Shown here in pieces: positions 14,097 to 23,341 of a DNA stretch of 64,000 bases (position 1 is the stretch's first letter; the number at the start of each line of letters is the position of its first letter). Position numbers and translations under genes: made by a program. The stretch is from Halobacteriales archaeon YIM A00013. Its GTDB lineage: Archaea > Halobacteriota > Halobacteria > Halobacteriales > Haloarculaceae. The stretch spans positions 124,001-188,000 of the forward strand of contig JAKCFM010000002.1 of NCBI GenBank assembly GCA_025041195.1. The letters run 5' to 3'. The notes below the pieces were generated by a model. It saw only the letters and a program-made list of their open reading frames with translations. It did not search any database and had not been told where the DNA came from.

Positions 14097-15758
14097 ATGG
14101 CCCATAACTCCTTCCCGACCGACCATCCTGCTATCGTCACCTGCGGGCTACCCTATGCAAATGGTGACCTCCATATCGGCCATCTCCGGACGTACATTGG
14201 GGGGGATGTTATCGATCGTGCACTCCAGAAACTCGGTCAGCAGACTGCATTCGTCAGTGGCTCCGATATGCACGGAACGCCGATCGCTGTCAACGCCCGA
14301 GAGAAAGGCGTCTCTCCGGAGAAATTTGCACTCCAGTGGCATGAGAAGTATCAAAACACTTTCTCTCGGTTCAACATTGATTTCGACAATTACGGTCATA
14401 CTGATGATGAGACAAATACGGCACTAACGCAGGAGCTCGTAAGAGACCTCGACGAACGTGGTCATATCTACGAATCCGAGGTTGAAGTCGCGTGGGATAC
14501 CGACGTAGACCAACCGCTGCCAGATCGATACATCGAAGGCATCTGTCCGTACTGTGGAGCGGTGGCTCGAGGTGATGAGTGTGAGAATTGTGGTCGCCAT
14601 CTCGAACCAGGCGAACTTGGGGAGCCACGCAGCGTTCTCACGGGAAGTCCGCCCGAATACCGGGTTCGCCAACACAAGTTCTTCCGACTCTCGGACTTTC
14701 AGGCCTACTTGCAAGAATTCATCGATCGTCTCGAAGGCACGGAAAACGCGCGCAATCAGCCTCGTGAGTGGATCGAAACCGAACTCAGAGACTGGGGAAT
14801 CACCCGTGACCTGGAGTGGGGGATCCCGTATCCGAAAGAAGAGACGGATCTCGTCCTCTACGTTTGGGTCGATGCGCCGATCGAATATATCGCCAGTACG
14901 AAACAGTATGCTGACCGGGTTGGGAAAGACGTCTTCGATTGGACTGACGTATGGAAACAGGACGACGGTGAGATCATCCATGTCATCGGTCGTGACATCA
15001 TTCAACATCATACGGTGTTCTGGCCTGCAGTGCTACGTGCCGTCGAGTACACCGAACCACGTGCGGTCATGGCGAGTGGATTCGTTAACGTAGGGGGAAA
15101 GGCGTTTTCGACTAGTCGAGACTACGCTATCTGGGCCGATGAATACCTCGAAACTGGGTTTCATCCGGATCTCTATCGCTATTACGTCACCACTGGGAGC
15201 ACCTTCCAGCAGGATATCGAGTTTTCGTGGGAACGCTTCGCTGACCGCGTGAACAGCGAACTGGTCGGCACCCTCGGCAACTTCCTCTATCGAACGTTGC
15301 TCTTCGCCTACCGGCATTACGAGGGCACACCTGACGCGCCTCTCTCTGAAGGAATTCACGACCGCATCCAGGAGGCGAATGATGAGTTCGTCGCCGGGAT
15401 CAACGACTATTCAATTCGAGCAGTGGGCATCGCCGCTCTCGATCTCGCCCGATTCGGGAACAGGTATCTCCAACAGTCCGAACCCTGGAATCTCATCGAA
15501 ACCGATCCCGAGCGGGCTTCGCGAGTGATCCGCGATTGTATCCAACTGGCGAAAGCAATTGCCGTCCTCATTGAACCAGTCACTCCACAGAAAGCTGCAC
15601 ATCTTTGGGAACAACTATCTGAAACCACCTCAGTGCACGATATATCGATTGATACCGCACTCGAAGCACCGGCTTCTGCACTAGAGGAGCCGATACCGCT
15701 ATTCGAGAAAATCCCAGACGACAGCATTGAAGAGCTCACGGAAGCGCTTCGAGAATAA
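14097..15758 (+). CDS. methionyl-tRNA synthetase-like protein, short paralogue
   Basis: Class I aminoacyl-tRNA synthetase core of 553 residues. The HIGH motif is at 26-29 (GDLHIGHLRTY). A zinc knuckle has C150-x2-C153 and C162-x2-C165 (CPYCG...CENCG), and the MetRS core segments GSDMHGTPI and VWVDAPIEYI are present. The KMSKS loop reads GGKAFSTSR (334-341), missing the first Lys of the usual K(M/F)S(K/T)S. The anticodon-binding helices are present, but the C-terminal EMAP-type tRNA-binding domain common in haloarchaeal MetG is absent. A TATAAT-like box lies just upstream. It is probably a second, accessory copy, perhaps giving inhibitor tolerance or a non-canonical role; activity is uncertain. 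Confidence 0.85.
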   Translation: MAHNSFPTDHPAIVTCGLPYANGDLHIGHLRTYIGGDVIDRALQKLGQQTAFVSGSDMHGTPIAVNAREKGVSPEKFALQWHEKYQNTFSRFNIDFDNYGHTDDETNTALTQELVRDLDERGHIYESEVEVAWDTDVDQPLPDRYIEGICPYCGAVARGDECENCGRHLEPGELGEPRSVLTGSPPEYRVRQHKFFRLSDFQAYLQEFIDRLEGTENARNQPREWIETELRDWGITRDLEWGIPYPKEETDLVLYVWVDAPIEYIASTKQYADRVGKDVFDWTDVWKQDDGEIIHVIGRDIIQHHTVFWPAVLRAVEYTEPRAVMASGFVNVGGKAFSTSRDYAIWADEYLETGFHPDLYRYYVTTGSTFQQDIEFSWERFADRVNSELVGTLGNFLYRTLLFAYRHYEGTPDAPLSEGIHDRIQEANDEFVAGINDYSIRAVGIAALDLARFGNRYLQQSEPWNLIETDPERASRVIRDCIQLAKAIAVLIEPVTPQKAAHLWEQLSETTSVHDISIDTALEAPASALEEPIPLFEKIPDDSIEELTEALRE

Positions 15759-18052: not shown

Positions 18053-18901
18053 TTATTCGGATTTTCGTCCTTCGATCGTTGCCGAGACGATGTACTGTTC
18101 GAGGTCGTGATCTGCCGACCACTCACGAATGAACTCGTGGCTATCGTCTTTCGGTTCGATCGTCACTGCCTCGAATCCAGCCGTATCAAGCAGTGATTCG
18201 AGATCGCTGATCGTCGCCGCTCCAGCGACACAGTCCGAAACGCTTTCTGGATCCGAACGGAGGGCTTCGGGAATCTCTGCTGTCATGACGACATCGGAAA
18301 TCGCAAGCCGGCCACCTGGGCGAAGCACGCGGTGTGCCTCTTCGAACACCTGCTGTTTGTCCGGTGAGAGATTGATGACGCAGTTGGAGATGATCACGTC
18401 GACCATTTCGTCGGCGACCGGAAGGTGCTCGATTTCTCCGAGCCGGAACTCGACGTTGCTGGCGTCGTTTTTCTCGACATTCTCCCGCGCACGGTCGATC
18501 ATTGCCGGGGTCATATCGACGCCGATAACGTGTCCTGCTGAACCGACCTCGCGAGCCGCGAGAAAACAGTCAAACCCACCACCGGACCCGAGATCGAGCA
18601 CGGTGTGTCCCGATTCGAGACTCGCTATCGCAGTCGGATTCCCACAGCCGAGGCCCAGATCTGCCCCCGCTGCCACGGCTTCACTGTCGGCTTTCGTGTA
18701 GCCGAGTCGCTGGGAGTCAACGCCGAGCGTGTCGCTATCGTCACAGCACGTGGTGTCTGACTCCGATGGTGATCCACAACAGCCATCCTCGGATGCTGAT
18801 TGGGCGATCGATGCGTATCGATTTCGAACCCCATTGCGCTGTTCGCGGTCGGAAAGTCCCGTTTTCGAGGTGGACCGGTCCTGGGAGATGTTGTCGCTCA
18901 T
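18053..18901 (-). CDS. arsM: arsenite S-adenosylmethionine methyltransferase
   Basis: Class I methyltransferase of 282 residues. The SAM loop is VLDLGSGGGFDCFLAA (101-116) and a GVDMTPAMID acidic strand follows. Family-specific features are LGLGCGNP (Cys86) and SNCVINLSP (Cys174), the arsenite-binding cysteines. An extra Cys-rich N-terminal segment (GCCGS, TTCCDD) is common in ArsM. The enzyme methylates As(III) to volatile or less toxic forms in the cytoplasm. Its ATG overlaps the stop of the upstream arsR by one base (TAATG), indicating coupled translation. Confidence 0.93.
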   Translation of the reverse strand: MSDNISQDRSTSKTGLSDREQRNGVRNRYASIAQSASEDGCCGSPSESDTTCCDDSDTLGVDSQRLGYTKADSEAVAAGADLGLGCGNPTAIASLESGHTVLDLGSGGGFDCFLAAREVGSAGHVIGVDMTPAMIDRARENVEKNDASNVEFRLGEIEHLPVADEMVDVIISNCVINLSPDKQQVFEEAHRVLRPGGRLAISDVVMTAEIPEALRSDPESVSDCVAGAATISDLESLLDTAGFEAVTIEPKDDSHEFIREWSADHDLEQYIVSATIEGRKSE

Positions 18902-19266
18902 TATCGGTCACGCCCCTGATGAGCATCGACCCGGTCAATGAGCTCCTCGGCAATTGAGGTTGCCTGATAGTAGCGCCAGCGGCCTTCTTTTCGGCGCTCG
19001 ACCAGTCCAACAGCATGGAGTTGTGAGAGCGCATGGCTGATCGCACTCTGTGATACCTCCAGTGGCGGGGCGAGATTACAGGCACAAACCTCGTCCGCAG
19101 CCGCAACGAGAAGCCGAATAGCCCCGTACCGCGTTGGGTTTGCGAGCGCTGCGAATAGTTCGACCTCGCTATCAAGTTCTTCGATCGAAATCTCCGGAAT
19201 CGTCGTACAGCACGCTTTCGATTGGGATTGTGCCGCCGATGGCTGGGTATCGCTCTGCCGTTCCAT
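18901..19266 (-). CDS. arsR: ArsR-family repressor, minus-strand operon
   Basis: Winged-helix repressor of 121 residues. The metal-sensing pair C61-x-C63 (DEVCACNLAPPL) comes just before the recognition helix (SQSAISHALSQLHAVGLVERR), and a further CC pair sits at 19-20. This is the haloarchaeal ArsR type that releases DNA on binding As(III) or Sb(III). It leads the arsM-SDR operon, and a 6-8-6 palindrome lies 15-34 bases upstream of its ATG. Confidence 0.92.
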   Translation of the reverse strand: MERQSDTQPSAAQSQSKACCTTIPEISIEELDSEVELFAALANPTRYGAIRLLVAAADEVCACNLAPPLEVSQSAISHALSQLHAVGLVERRKEGRWRYYQATSIAEELIDRVDAHQGRDR

Positions 19267-19452: not shown

Positions 19453-19857
19453 ATGGTAATGGCGCAAGCGACAGAACGACTCCAACGATACCTCGAAGAC
19501 GAACTTGGTGCGTGTCGAACCGAGGACGTAGAACAGCGCCTTGATGAGCTCAGTACACTTGAGACAGCACTTGAGGTGGAACAGGTGACCACTGAGCTCG
19601 ATGTGCTTTCTTCGCTCGCTAACGAGACGCGGTATACGCTCGTCCGGGTGCTTGTTGGGGCTCAAGAGGAACTGTGCGTCTGTGAGTTGCATGCAGTCGT
19701 CGACGTGACTGAGAGCGGACTTAGTCACGCCCTTTCGCAACTCGTCGACGCCGGACTCGTCACTGGTCGGAAAGACGGCCGCTGGAAGAAATATCGAGCG
19801 ACGAATCGGGCGATCACTCTCATCACCGTCCTTGAAGGGAGTGTGAGCGATGAGTAA
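19453..19857 (+). CDS. arsR: ArsR-family repressor, plus-strand operon
   Basis: Repressor of 134 residues. It has an N-terminal helical extension (1-50, QRYLEDELGA...) and a winged-helix domain with the metal pair C75-x-C77 (EELCVCELHAVVD) and recognition helix SGLSHALSQLVDAGLVTGRK. It heads arsR-acr3-arsC; its 3' end overlaps acr3 by eight bases, so translation is coupled. It is divergent from a second arsR, giving a two-repressor control region of about 190 bases. An alternative ATG lies six bases downstream. Confidence 0.92.
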   Translation: MVMAQATERLQRYLEDELGACRTEDVEQRLDELSTLETALEVEQVTTELDVLSSLANETRYTLVRVLVGAQEELCVCELHAVVDVTESGLSHALSQLVDAGLVTGRKDGRWKKYRATNRAITLITVLEGSVSDE

Positions 19858-21004
19858 TATCGAGACGCACAAGCACGGTCCAAACTGTGACTGTCCGGAC
19901 TGTGGGAATCCACGCTCGATGGATTTTCTCGACAAGTATCTCACCGTCTGGATTTTCGGGGCGATGGCCACCGGCGTCGGACTCGGATACGTCGCGCCAG
20001 CAGTGACAAAGCCGATCCAGGATCTCCATCTCGTGGGAATCGGCCTTGTGGTGATGATGTATCCACCGCTGGCGAAAGCAGACTACTCCCAGCTCCGTGC
20101 CGTTGTTAGCAACTGGCGCGTACTCGGGTTGAGCCTCATCCAGAACTGGCTCATCGGGCCAACGCTGATGTTCGGGCTCGCGGTCGTCTTCTTCAGCGGG
20201 CTCATTCCCGGGCTTCCAGCACGACCCGAGTACTTCCTCGGGCTGGTATTCATCGGGATGGCTCGGTGTATCGCGATGGTGCTGGTCTGGAATGAACTGG
20301 CGGAGGGCTCGACCGAATACGTGACCGGACTCGTCGCGTTCAACAGCCTCTTTCAGATCCTCACGTATGGAGTGTACATCTGGTTCTTCGGGCTGTTCTT
20401 GCCACCCCTGTTGGGTATGGATTCACTCGTCGCTGGCATCACTACCTTCGATGTGACGCCCATGCAGGTGTTCGAGGCGATCGTCGTCTTTCTCGGGATC
20501 CCCTTCGCAGGTGGCTTCCTTACCCGGTACGTTGGAATCCGAACAAAGGGCGAACAGTGGTATGACGAGCAGTTCATCCCGACAATCGATCCGTTGACGC
20601 TGGTCGCGCTGCTGTTCACAGTGATCGTGATGTTCGCCACTCAGGGTGGCACCATCGTCGCCGCACCGGGTGACGTTCTGTTGATCGCAGTACCGCTGAC
20701 GATCTACTTCGTCGTGATGTTTCTCGTCAGCTTCGGGATGGGCCGCGGGATCGGGGCCGATTACTCGACGACGACGGCCATCGGCTTCACCGCAGCCTCG
20801 AACAACTTCGAGCTGGCTATCGCGGTCGCAGTCGCCGTGTTCGGCGTCGGTTCTGGAGTTGCTTTTGCAACCGTCATCGGCCCGCTCATCGAAGTGCCGG
20901 TACTGCTCGCGCTGGTCAACGTCGCGCTGTACTTTCAGCGGACGATCGACTGGAAAAGCGCCGAACCGGACGCCGTCGCTGCATCGACGACCGATGATGA
21001 TTGA
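19850..21004 (+). CDS. acr3: ACR3-family arsenite efflux permease
   Basis: Ten-helix membrane protein of 384 residues. Hallmarks are GVGLGYVAP near TM1 and the TM4 segment FIGMARCIAMVLVWNELAEGS, which carries the conserved transport cysteine. The TM9-TM10 region GFTAASNNFELAIAVAVAVFG holds the conserved NNFELAIA block. The N-terminus has an extra Cys/His motif (HKHGPNCDCPDCG, Cys13, 15, 18), which may bind As(III) before transport. It exports arsenite in antiport with protons. Fifteen bases separate it from arsC. Confidence 0.95.
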   Translation: MSNIETHKHGPNCDCPDCGNPRSMDFLDKYLTVWIFGAMATGVGLGYVAPAVTKPIQDLHLVGIGLVVMMYPPLAKADYSQLRAVVSNWRVLGLSLIQNWLIGPTLMFGLAVVFFSGLIPGLPARPEYFLGLVFIGMARCIAMVLVWNELAEGSTEYVTGLVAFNSLFQILTYGVYIWFFGLFLPPLLGMDSLVAGITTFDVTPMQVFEAIVVFLGIPFAGGFLTRYVGIRTKGEQWYDEQFIPTIDPLTLVALLFTVIVMFATQGGTIVAAPGDVLLIAVPLTIYFVVMFLVSFGMGRGIGADYSTTTAIGFTAASNNFELAIAVAVAVFGVGSGVAFATVIGPLIEVPVLLALVNVALYFQRTIDWKSAEPDAVAASTTDDD

Positions 21005-21019
21005 TCACACGATACACCA

Positions 21020-21847
21020 ATGACGACAACACCCAATTCATCCGAGTCAATTCGTATCGCATTCATGTGCGTTCAGAACGCAGGGGGCTCACAGATGGCC
21101 ACGGCGTTTGCAGATCGGGAACGCGCCCGTCGTGGCCTCGACGATCGCGTTGTTCTCTTGACCGGTGGTACCCATCCAGCCGATCACGTCCATGAGGAGG
21201 TAGTTGACGTGATGGACGAGGTGGGCTTCGACCTCTCAGACCGAAGGCCGTGTGAGATCACGGTCGATCAGCTCCAGTCGTGTGACTATGTCGCGACGAT
21301 GGGCTGTTCGACGCAGGATATCAGAGCGGTCGGGAGCAAGGTCGCCGAGCTTCGCTCGGCTGCTAACCAGAATTCCGTGAATTCTGGTGATGTAGATGTT
21401 CGTGACTGGGCCCTCGACGATCCCGACGGCCAGAATCTCGAATACGTTCGCGAGATCCGCGAGACGATCGAAGAACGCGTCACGGCGTTGTTCGACGAGA
21501 TTGCTGGACTCTCCTGGAACGGTCTCTACGAAGGTTTCTCCATCAAGCGGCCACTCCTCTCAAGCGGCTTGTCGATGCCGGCTACGAAAACGATGACGCC
21601 CTCGATCTGCACCTACCATGGTACGTCGGCGAGTCGCTCACCATCGCGAACCTTCGACTTCCCTGCGCTCTTCCGATTCGACCCCGTACACCAACGCAAC
21701 GGCGTCTCTGAGACGGGTCTTCTTGACCACATCAAGAAGCACTACTACCAGAGTCATACGGATAGCAACCCGACTGAATTCGTCCCAGTCGGACCGAATA
21801 TCGATGTAACGATCCCTCATGGTCGCAAACGAACAGCAAGTGAGTGA
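21020..21847 (+). CDS. arsC: arsenate-reductase-like low-molecular-weight phosphatase with altered P-loop, insertion and fused tail
   Basis: Residues 1-164 match the LMW-phosphatase-type ArsC: IAFMCVQNAGGSQMATAF (nucleophile Cys17), CDYVATMGCS and DVRDWALDDPDG (general-acid Asp). Three oddities are seen. The P-loop C-x5-R has Gly23 (GGC) for the catalytic Arg (CGC), a one-base change. Residues of about 101-122 are an in-frame insertion built of two perfect hairpins. After about residue 164 the frame runs on into unrelated sequence ending in a relic of glutathionyl-hydroquinone reductase. Position in arsR-acr3-arsC indicates an original As(V)-reducing role. Activity is doubtful; it may be a pseudogene in progress. 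Confidence 0.75.
   Translation: MTTTPNSSESIRIAFMCVQNAGGSQMATAFADRERARRGLDDRVVLLTGGTHPADHVHEEVVDVMDEVGFDLSDRRPCEITVDQLQSCDYVATMGCSTQDIRAVGSKVAELRSAANQNSVNSGDVDVRDWALDDPDGQNLEYVREIRETIEERVTALFDEIAGLSWNGLYEGFSIKRPLLSSGLSMPATKTMTPSICTYHGTSASRSPSRTFDFPALFRFDPVHQRNGVSETGLLDHIKKHYYQSHTDSNPTEFVPVGPNIDVTIPHGRKRTASE
21344..21387. repeat. two adjacent perfect hairpins inside arsC
   Basis: Hairpin A is GCCGAGC/GCTCGGC (21344-21350 with 21354-21360, loop TTC). Hairpin B is CCAGAATTC/GAATTCTGG (21367-21375 with 21379-21387, loop CGT). Both lie in the segment that interrupts the ArsC family alignment between MGCSTQDI and DVDVRDWA. The insertion keeps the reading frame. It looks like a small palindromic mobile element rather than coding sequence under selection. 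Confidence 0.75.
21650..21847 (+). pseudogene. relic of a glutathionyl-hydroquinone reductase (YqjG/GST-omega-like) fused to arsC
   Basis: In the arsC frame, residues 215-268 read ALFRFDPVHQ, then LLDHIKKHYYQSHTDSNPTE and FVPVGPNIDVTIPHGR. This resembles the end of YqjG-type enzymes (LxRFDPVY...FDHIKRHYYxSHxxINPxxIVPVGPxxDFxxPH). The middle of the parent gene has been deleted between RFDPV and the DHIK block. The bases between about 21,515 and 21,650 are not assigned; another frame there reads LVDAGYENDDALDLHLPWYV. Confidence 0.7.
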
Positions 21848-21901
21848 CATCAATCCAAAGAATCCCTCTATTCGAAGTCACTGGAGTGAGAAGTGGTCAC
21901 T

Positions 21902-23341
21902 ATGAATCGTTCCAACTCGCCCGAAACAGGATTCATCGATCCGAGTGGGGCTAACGCCGACGCCATCCAGGATCTCACTGAAGACGTGCTCAATCAGCTC
22001 CTTGAGCAACTTGAAACGGCCAACGACCGGTCCCCGTTACCTGACGTGTCTACTGTCCCTACGGGGACAATTCCAGACTCCCCACGGTCCGAGACCGATC
22101 TTCTCAACGACCTCGAGACGATCGTTGCTGGATCGATGAACCCCGCTCATCCGGGATATATCGGTCATATGGATACGATGCCGACGACGGTGTCGGTACT
22201 GGGTGACCTCGTCGCATCGGCGGTCAACAACAATATGTTGAGCGTGGAGATGTCCCCAATCTTCTCGGAGCTTGAGGTCCAGTTAACTGAGACCATCGCC
22301 AGCGAGTTCGGCCTCGGCCCCAACGCCGGCGGGATCCTCGCCAGTGGGGGGTCACTTGCGAACCTACATGCTCTCTCGGTCGCTCGGAACCAGGCATTCG
22401 ATGTTCACGACAGCGGGCTCGCCGGACTGGAGGGTGAGCCGGTGCTGTTCGCGTCTGACGTAGCCCACACCTCCCTACAGAAAGCCGCGATGCTGTTGGG
22501 GCTCGGGACCGACGCGATCACCGCCGTCGAAACGGACGCGAACTCTCGAATGAAGCCAAGCGAGCTGAACCAAGCGATCGAACAGGCCGAACGAGATGGT
22601 CGCATGCCCTTCTGTGTCGTCGCGACCGCTGGCACAACCACGACCGGGAACATCGATCCGCTCCCGGCGGTTCGTGATGTCGTCGATGACCACGACCTGT
22701 GGTTGCACGTCGACGCGGCCTACGGCGGGGCCCTCATCTTCTCCGAACCCGAACGGGACCGACTGGATGGCGTTGAGGAGGCCAACTCAGTGACGTTCAA
22801 CCCCCAGAAGTGGTGTTACGTTGCGAAGACGTGCGCGATGACTCTGTTCGCTGATTTGGACGTCTTGCAGGAGGACTTTCGGATTGGGGCGCCGTATATG
22901 CGCGGCGACGACGCGATTCCGAATCTCGGTGAACTGAGCATTCAAGGGACCCGGCGGGCGGCGGTCCTGAAACTTTGGCTCACCTTTCAGCACCTCGGCC
23001 GCGAGGGGCTCGGACAGTTGATCGACGAGAGCTACCGCCTGACGGCTGTGATTCGTGACCGTGTCGCTAACAGGGATGCGCTGGAGCTGGCCAGCGAGCC
23101 AGAGCTGAACATCGTCTGTTTCCGTGCCACGCCAGATTGGTGTTTACCGGCCGAGCGAGATGCACTCAACGGACGACTCCAGCGCCACCTGCTCTCCAAA
23201 CAGGACATCTTTGTCTCGCTACCGACCTATCGGGACACACGGTGGCTCCGAGTCGTTCTATTGAACCCATTCACAGATAAAATGACGCTTGATCGACTGT
23301 TCGACGGAATCGATTTGTTCTTAGAGGCAGAACGACCGTAA
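21902..23341 (+). CDS. pyridoxal-phosphate-dependent group II decarboxylase
   Basis: About 479 residues from the ATG (an in-frame GTG lies nine bases upstream). It has the DDC/GadB-family fold. Motifs are HPGYIGHM near 85, SPIFSELE, ILASGGSLANLHAL, the cofactor-stacking and Asp-binding block LWLHVDAAYGGALI, and the Schiff-base lysine in SVTFNPQKWCYV. Relatives decarboxylate glutamate, aspartate, 2,4-diaminobutyrate or aromatic amino acids; the sequence does not settle which. It follows arsC by about 54 bases, but a shared transcript is not certain. Confidence 0.9.
   Translation: MNRSNSPETGFIDPSGANADAIQDLTEDVLNQLLEQLETANDRSPLPDVSTVPTGTIPDSPRSETDLLNDLETIVAGSMNPAHPGYIGHMDTMPTTVSVLGDLVASAVNNNMLSVEMSPIFSELEVQLTETIASEFGLGPNAGGILASGGSLANLHALSVARNQAFDVHDSGLAGLEGEPVLFASDVAHTSLQKAAMLLGLGTDAITAVETDANSRMKPSELNQAIEQAERDGRMPFCVVATAGTTTTGNIDPLPAVRDVVDDHDLWLHVDAAYGGALIFSEPERDRLDGVEEANSVTFNPQKWCYVAKTCAMTLFADLDVLQEDFRIGAPYMRGDDAIPNLGELSIQGTRRAAVLKLWLTFQHLGREGLGQLIDESYRLTAVIRDRVANRDALELASEPELNIVCFRATPDWCLPAERDALNGRLQRHLLSKQDIFVSLPTYRDTRWLRVVLLNPFTDKMTLDRLFDGIDLFLEAERP

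Follow-up and report, generated by a model that had tools for sequence, protein, structure and literature searches.

A haloarchaeal arsC gene without its catalytic arginine: probable recent inactivation in a cluster for arsenite export and methylation

Here we describe an arsC gene that has lost the arginine of its catalytic loop and that we consider, with a probability of roughly 0.7, to be a unitary, recently inactivated gene, leaving arsenite export and methylation. It lies in the window, by which we mean the whole stretch of 64,000 nucleotides analyzed. Its open frame (positions 21020 to 21847; plus strand, like all features below unless stated otherwise) begins with an ATG at 21020 and encodes 275 aa, consisting of an LMWP-type core (residues 1 to 162) and an unrelated tail of 112 to 113 aa. 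The P-loop, C17-V-Q-N-A-G-G23-S24 (21068 to 21091), starts with the Cys17 codon TGC at 21068 to 21070 and carries Gly, encoded by GGC at 21086 to 21088, in place of the catalytic Arg. The first-pass annotation had reported this loop as CVQNAGGS with Gly (GGC) for Arg inside 21065 to 21094, and both sequence and coordinates were right. It had also stated that the nucleophile Cys and the DPDG acid remain, and indeed Cys17 and Asp134 of the DDPDG acid loop (21419 to 21421) are both present. Cys17, the P-loop nucleophile of functional LMWP-type enzymes, is Cys in 87 of 87 orthologues, and the acid is Asp in 86 of 87, with one gap; Cys96 is kept as well. The oxyanion-binding Arg of C-x5-R, on the other hand, is replaced by Gly23. 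The claim of a single-base change holds in that GGC is one first-position step from CGC, but CGC is an assumed ancestral codon.

A contig scan for ArsC yielded 75 loci. Of 146 family genomes searched, 140 contained matches, the loop residues being read in at most 30 loci among the matches listed for these genomes. From 92 distinct proteins, two paralogue and two truncated rows were removed, giving an alignment of 88 rows (87 orthologues and the window protein). In this alignment with haloarchaeal orthologues, which the first-pass annotation had proposed, Arg occupies the loop site in all 87 other distinct full-length sequences. Likewise, tblastn over 106 loci returned 111 matches, two of them the window gene itself, and the remaining 109 all have Arg at this site in the loci examined (96 CVQNAGRS, 8 CVRNAGRS, and 5 CVENAGRS). 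When the Gly form was searched for as a degenerate DNA pattern, only 1 of 391 class genomes matched, that of the window, while the Arg-form pattern was found in 372 of 391; by the same kind of search, the Arg form is absent from the window genome. Gly-bearing orthologues were thus looked for among 87 sequences and 391 class genomes, and none was found besides the window gene. Judged by these sequence comparisons, Gly23 is more than chance variation, since Arg is invariant in the other orthologues and the tblastn matches, and the Gly form matched no other class genome. The premise that LMWP-type arsenate reductases need C-x5-R must be narrowed: Arg is invariant in this group, but it is not universal among such enzymes, as the solved structure 3rh0 has Lys. 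Within the genus, two ArsC matches each were obtained in five of the six other genomes, and none in G039 at E 1e-5.

The protein is still recognized as a family member, with a Pfam LMWPc match over residues 13 to 158 (E 3.8e-25; 89.2 bits against a gathering score of 23.2). Its scores for the NCBIfam equivalogs fall below the cutoffs (TIGR02689, 45.4/157.6; TIGR02691, 40.5/174.3). Because three intact haloarchaeal orthologues likewise fail the NCBIfam arsenate-reductase cutoffs, this failure is not evidence of inactivation.

Four further changes, all absent from the first-pass annotation, were found in this analysis: R78C, L99Q, a 51-nt insertion, and the loss of the stop codon. Neither substitution is shared by any of the 87 orthologues. 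Cys78 (21251 to 21253) replaces a residue that is Arg in 76 of 87 and Cys in none, and Gln99 (21314 to 21316) replaces one that is Leu in 85 of 87 and Gln in none. In the alignment with the solved structure, the Cys78 column falls on a Lys of 3rh0, counted as K64. We take 3t38 and 3rh0 to be the Corynebacterium arsenate reductases Cg_ArsC1' and Cg_ArsC2, respectively; the residue numbering of 3rh0 is consistent with Cg_ArsC2. Neither a premature stop nor a frameshift was found in the arsC core, and the frame is open throughout. The window protein departs from the consensus at 9 of the 70%-consensus columns (median, 6; at least 9 in 28 of the 87 orthologues) and, of 38 strongly conserved positions, keeps 36. 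Erosion across the whole protein was therefore ruled out, the 9 departures being ordinary, the conserved positions being largely kept, and dN/dS being low (see below).

The insertion (21336 to 21386, with ends uncertain by a few bases) was delimited by alignment with five relatives. It adds 17 codons in frame, interrupts the loop after Cys96, and is missing from all 87 other rows of the 88-row protein alignment. One orthologue, L054, has two extra residues in this same loop. Two perfect hairpins lie in the insertion region, at 21344 to 21360 and 21366 to 21388, and the inserted DNA folds with -16.9 kcal/mol (z, -6.4), which none of 200 shuffled sequences equalled. These hairpins may be akin to the end hairpins of IS200/IS605 elements, which we offer purely as an idea. 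Whole and half patterns of the insertion revealed no second copy in the window genome, except for one half match on contig C1 with 2 mismatches, and the joined pattern had no match in 145 other family genomes. Membership of a repeat family was ruled out, as no second full copy was found in the genome or in those 145 genomes.

Downstream of the core, the native arsC stop codon is lost and the frame continues into a fused 3' tail (21509 to 21847) without a Pfam match. Past residue 162, the frame thus runs on for 113 aa, compared to 0 to 22 aa in the 87 orthologues. The tail represents the end of a decayed GST-like gene: from 21624 on, its DNA matches the end of such a gene on contig C3, while 21509 to 21623 gave no DNA match in the comparison with that contig. 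Relative to the C3 gene, the fragment has an internal deletion, and its own stop codon has also changed. The C3 gene contains GST_C_2 and GST_N_2 domains by Pfam and is presumably an ECM4/YqjG homolog. Adjoining the fragment in the window is a gene for a PLP-dependent decarboxylase (21893 to 23341), and this arrangement has a parent-like pair on C3, where the decarboxylase gene directly follows the GST-like gene, with about 90% DNA identity over 1,831 columns. The genome thus holds one pair with open frames on C3 (L113:987-3620) and one about 90% identical to it on C2 (window 21509 to 23341), the GST-like gene being decayed in the latter. In three same-genus relatives the order arsR-acr3-arsC is kept, and the GST-like and PLP decarboxylase genes are absent from the stretches examined.

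Selection was assessed with a purpose-written two-ratio codon model applied to 12 sequences (11 relatives and the window) over 134 arsC codons. On the window branch omega was 0.121, which is indistinguishable from the background value of 0.081 (2dlnL, 0.97), a recent loss being beyond the reach of the test. For acr3 (299 codons), the values were 0.025 and 0.031. On the arsC branch, an omega above about 0.26 is excluded at the 95% level and a value of 1.0 is rejected (2dlnL, 19.4). By this codon comparison, purifying selection was strong along most of the branch and, therefore, the loss, if real, would be recent. In other words, the low dN/dS means either that the loss is recent or that the protein is still constrained. 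An AlphaFold2 prediction based on a 69-row alignment gave pLDDT values mostly of 90 to 98 for the core, about 48 to 55 for the insertion stretch, and below 50 for residues 166 to 275. This prediction would fit a core that looks intact and an insertion and tail that are unfolded, activity being outside its reach.

The arsenic genes around arsC appear intact. Their order in the window is SDR-arsM-arsR / arsR-acr3-arsC, with arsM, encoding an arsenite methyltransferase, at 18053 to 18901 (minus strand; NF008823, 348.5 bits; cutoff, 263), a divergent arsR-type regulator at 18901 to 19266 (minus strand; NF033788, 77.3 bits; cutoff, 55), another in line with acr3-arsC at 19453 to 19857 (NF033788, 70.8 bits; cutoff, 55), and an intact acr3, encoding the arsenite efflux transporter, at 19850 to 21004 (TIGR00832, 373.8 bits; cutoff, 282.8). 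The relative genome G044 has the identical order, SDR included, with 91% identity for acr3 in the main segment and 71% for arsC. The window genome consists of 3 contigs (2,727,271, 745,770, and 255,819 bases), the window sitting on the second, with a completeness of 96.48 and a contamination of 3.32. Profile searches of this genome found no further LMWPc protein, no PF03960-type ArsC, and no ArsJ. With these searches and a protein search all empty, a second, compensating ArsC of the LMWP or PF03960 type and the ArsJ route were ruled out in the window genome. Elsewhere on this second replicon, the window contains a methionine--tRNA ligase gene (14097 to 15758; 553 aa, covering positions 4 to 545 of a 676-position model); a tRNA scan found none.

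In LMWP-type ArsC, the P-loop backbone and the Arg hold the arsenate while the Cys attacks it; an Asp serves as the acid, and the reduction is finished by thiols. Without Arg23, and without the second basic residue, the loop would probably be unable to bind or orient arsenate for attack by Cys17, and As(V) would no longer be reduced by the window ArsC. The ArsR-Acr3 and ArsR-ArsM units would presumably remain able to sense As(III), export it, and methylate it. Such an inactivation would be recent relative to the split from the relatives, given that strong purifying selection is still visible in the remainder of the sequence. Of the two readings put forward in the first-pass annotation, it is therefore the newly inactivated gene, leaving arsenite export and methylation, that we favor: Arg is invariant elsewhere, arsC carries further independent lesions, no other LMWP-type or PF03960 ArsC was found, and acr3, arsM, and the two arsR genes match their families well. 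Its word "newly" fits the branch dN/dS of 0.12 with an upper bound of about 0.26. As expected of a pseudogene, an invariant catalytic residue is lost and the structure is disrupted by the 51-nt insertion and by the lost stop with its fused tail. Counting against inactivation are the open frame, an insertion whose length is a multiple of three, the rejection of neutral evolution, and the confidently predicted core.

These same observations bear on the second reading, in which the protein has another role. It is compatible with the open frame and the predicted core, but we favor it less. Stated as a pseudo-enzyme, in which catalysis was lost and the protein kept for binding an oxyanion or a partner, with insertion and tail tolerated or used, it draws on the in-frame nature of the insertion, on the low dN/dS, and on the 36 conserved positions retained in the core. 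However, the low dN/dS is equally compatible with a recent loss, the residue lost is the very Arg that binds the oxyanion, the tail and insertion are of low predicted confidence, and no other of the 391 class genomes has the Gly form, so that no lineage was seen maintaining it. We regard this explanation as unlikely. Its more specific version, a maintained pseudo-arsenate-reductase whose Cys and fold are selected and whose hairpin-encoded loop and new C-terminal tail serve a noncatalytic role beside the efflux pump, for example in arsenic binding, appears very unlikely.

It also seems quite unlikely that the protein has stayed active, whether as arsenate reductase or as arsenate-thiol transferase, by working without the loop Arg in the way 3rh0 does with Lys. 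Cys17, Cys96, and Asp134 are intact; PMC6514093 names K64, together with C8, V9, N11, G12, and G13, in the active-site loop of Cg_ArsC2, and the 3rh0 loop reads CVGNGGKS in the alignment. Nevertheless, the window ArsC has Gly rather than Lys at the loop site and Cys at the K64 column, so that both basic residues are gone, and the insertion follows shortly after the Cys96 region. Finally, the Gly codon might reflect an error of sequencing or assembly, in which case the true gene would have Arg and work; this would take only a single G for C, and the completeness and contamination values given above leave some room for it. However, R78C, L99Q, the insertion, and the loss of the stop are changes of their own that one base error does not explain, and this possibility is likewise improbable.

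Our preferred reading, recent inactivation of arsC, describes a loss that haloarchaea can bear: deletion of arsC in Halobacterium NRC-1 caused no arsenate sensitivity, according to PMC3600143, and loss of the gene is therefore tolerable in this group. Internal stops were seen in some arsC-like matches of three family genomes (G073, G066, and G130). In a further arsC, from a MAG (L072:4991-5460), the frame departs from the family immediately past CSTLELE, and the gene lacks its C-terminal half; this break point is at approximately the same place as the insertion in the window gene. Because of these broken copies, arsC decay is, as far as the genomes compared can tell, not rare. Literature searches by the corresponding terms returned no title dealing with a haloarchaeal ArsC that lacks the Arg or with an arsC pseudogene in haloarchaea, and nothing was found with the terms used for an Arg mutant of ArsC or for "Lys64". 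Overall, the finding is one of ordinary gene decay, clearly documented. If our reading is right, the name arsC would wrongly suggest arsenate resistance here, surveys that count arsC genes would overstate arsenate reduction, and the locus would be a natural example of an ars cluster in which arsenite export and methylation have outlasted the reductase.

Among known systems, the haloarchaeal acr3-operon ArsC (Halocatena salina WP_247994839.1, locus L117, and the G044 copy, L093) shares with the window the order arsM-arsR / arsR-acr3-arsC, the H. salina cluster differing only in the absence of the SDR match. The window ArsC is 71% identical to L093 by tblastn and 79% identical over 141 shared columns. 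Proteins of this type have the Cys, the acid loop, and Cys96 in common with it but, unlike it, carry the loop Arg and, in most cases, Arg78, lack the insertion, and end at a stop codon of their own. The thioredoxin-coupled enzymes 1jf8 and 1jl3, which we take to originate from plasmid pI258 and Bacillus, gave profile matches to the window ArsC with E values of about 1e-12. Their second resolving Cys, presumably C89, is not in the consensus of the group to which the window ArsC belongs, and the loop Arg is missing from the window protein as well. Its closest solved relatives are 3t38 and 3rh0, with which it shares the LMWP fold and a CVxN loop. The 3rh0-type arsenate-thiol transferase has Lys14 and Lys64, where the window ArsC has Gly23 and Cys78; at the loop site itself, 3t38 has Arg, 3rh0 has Lys, and the window ArsC has Gly.
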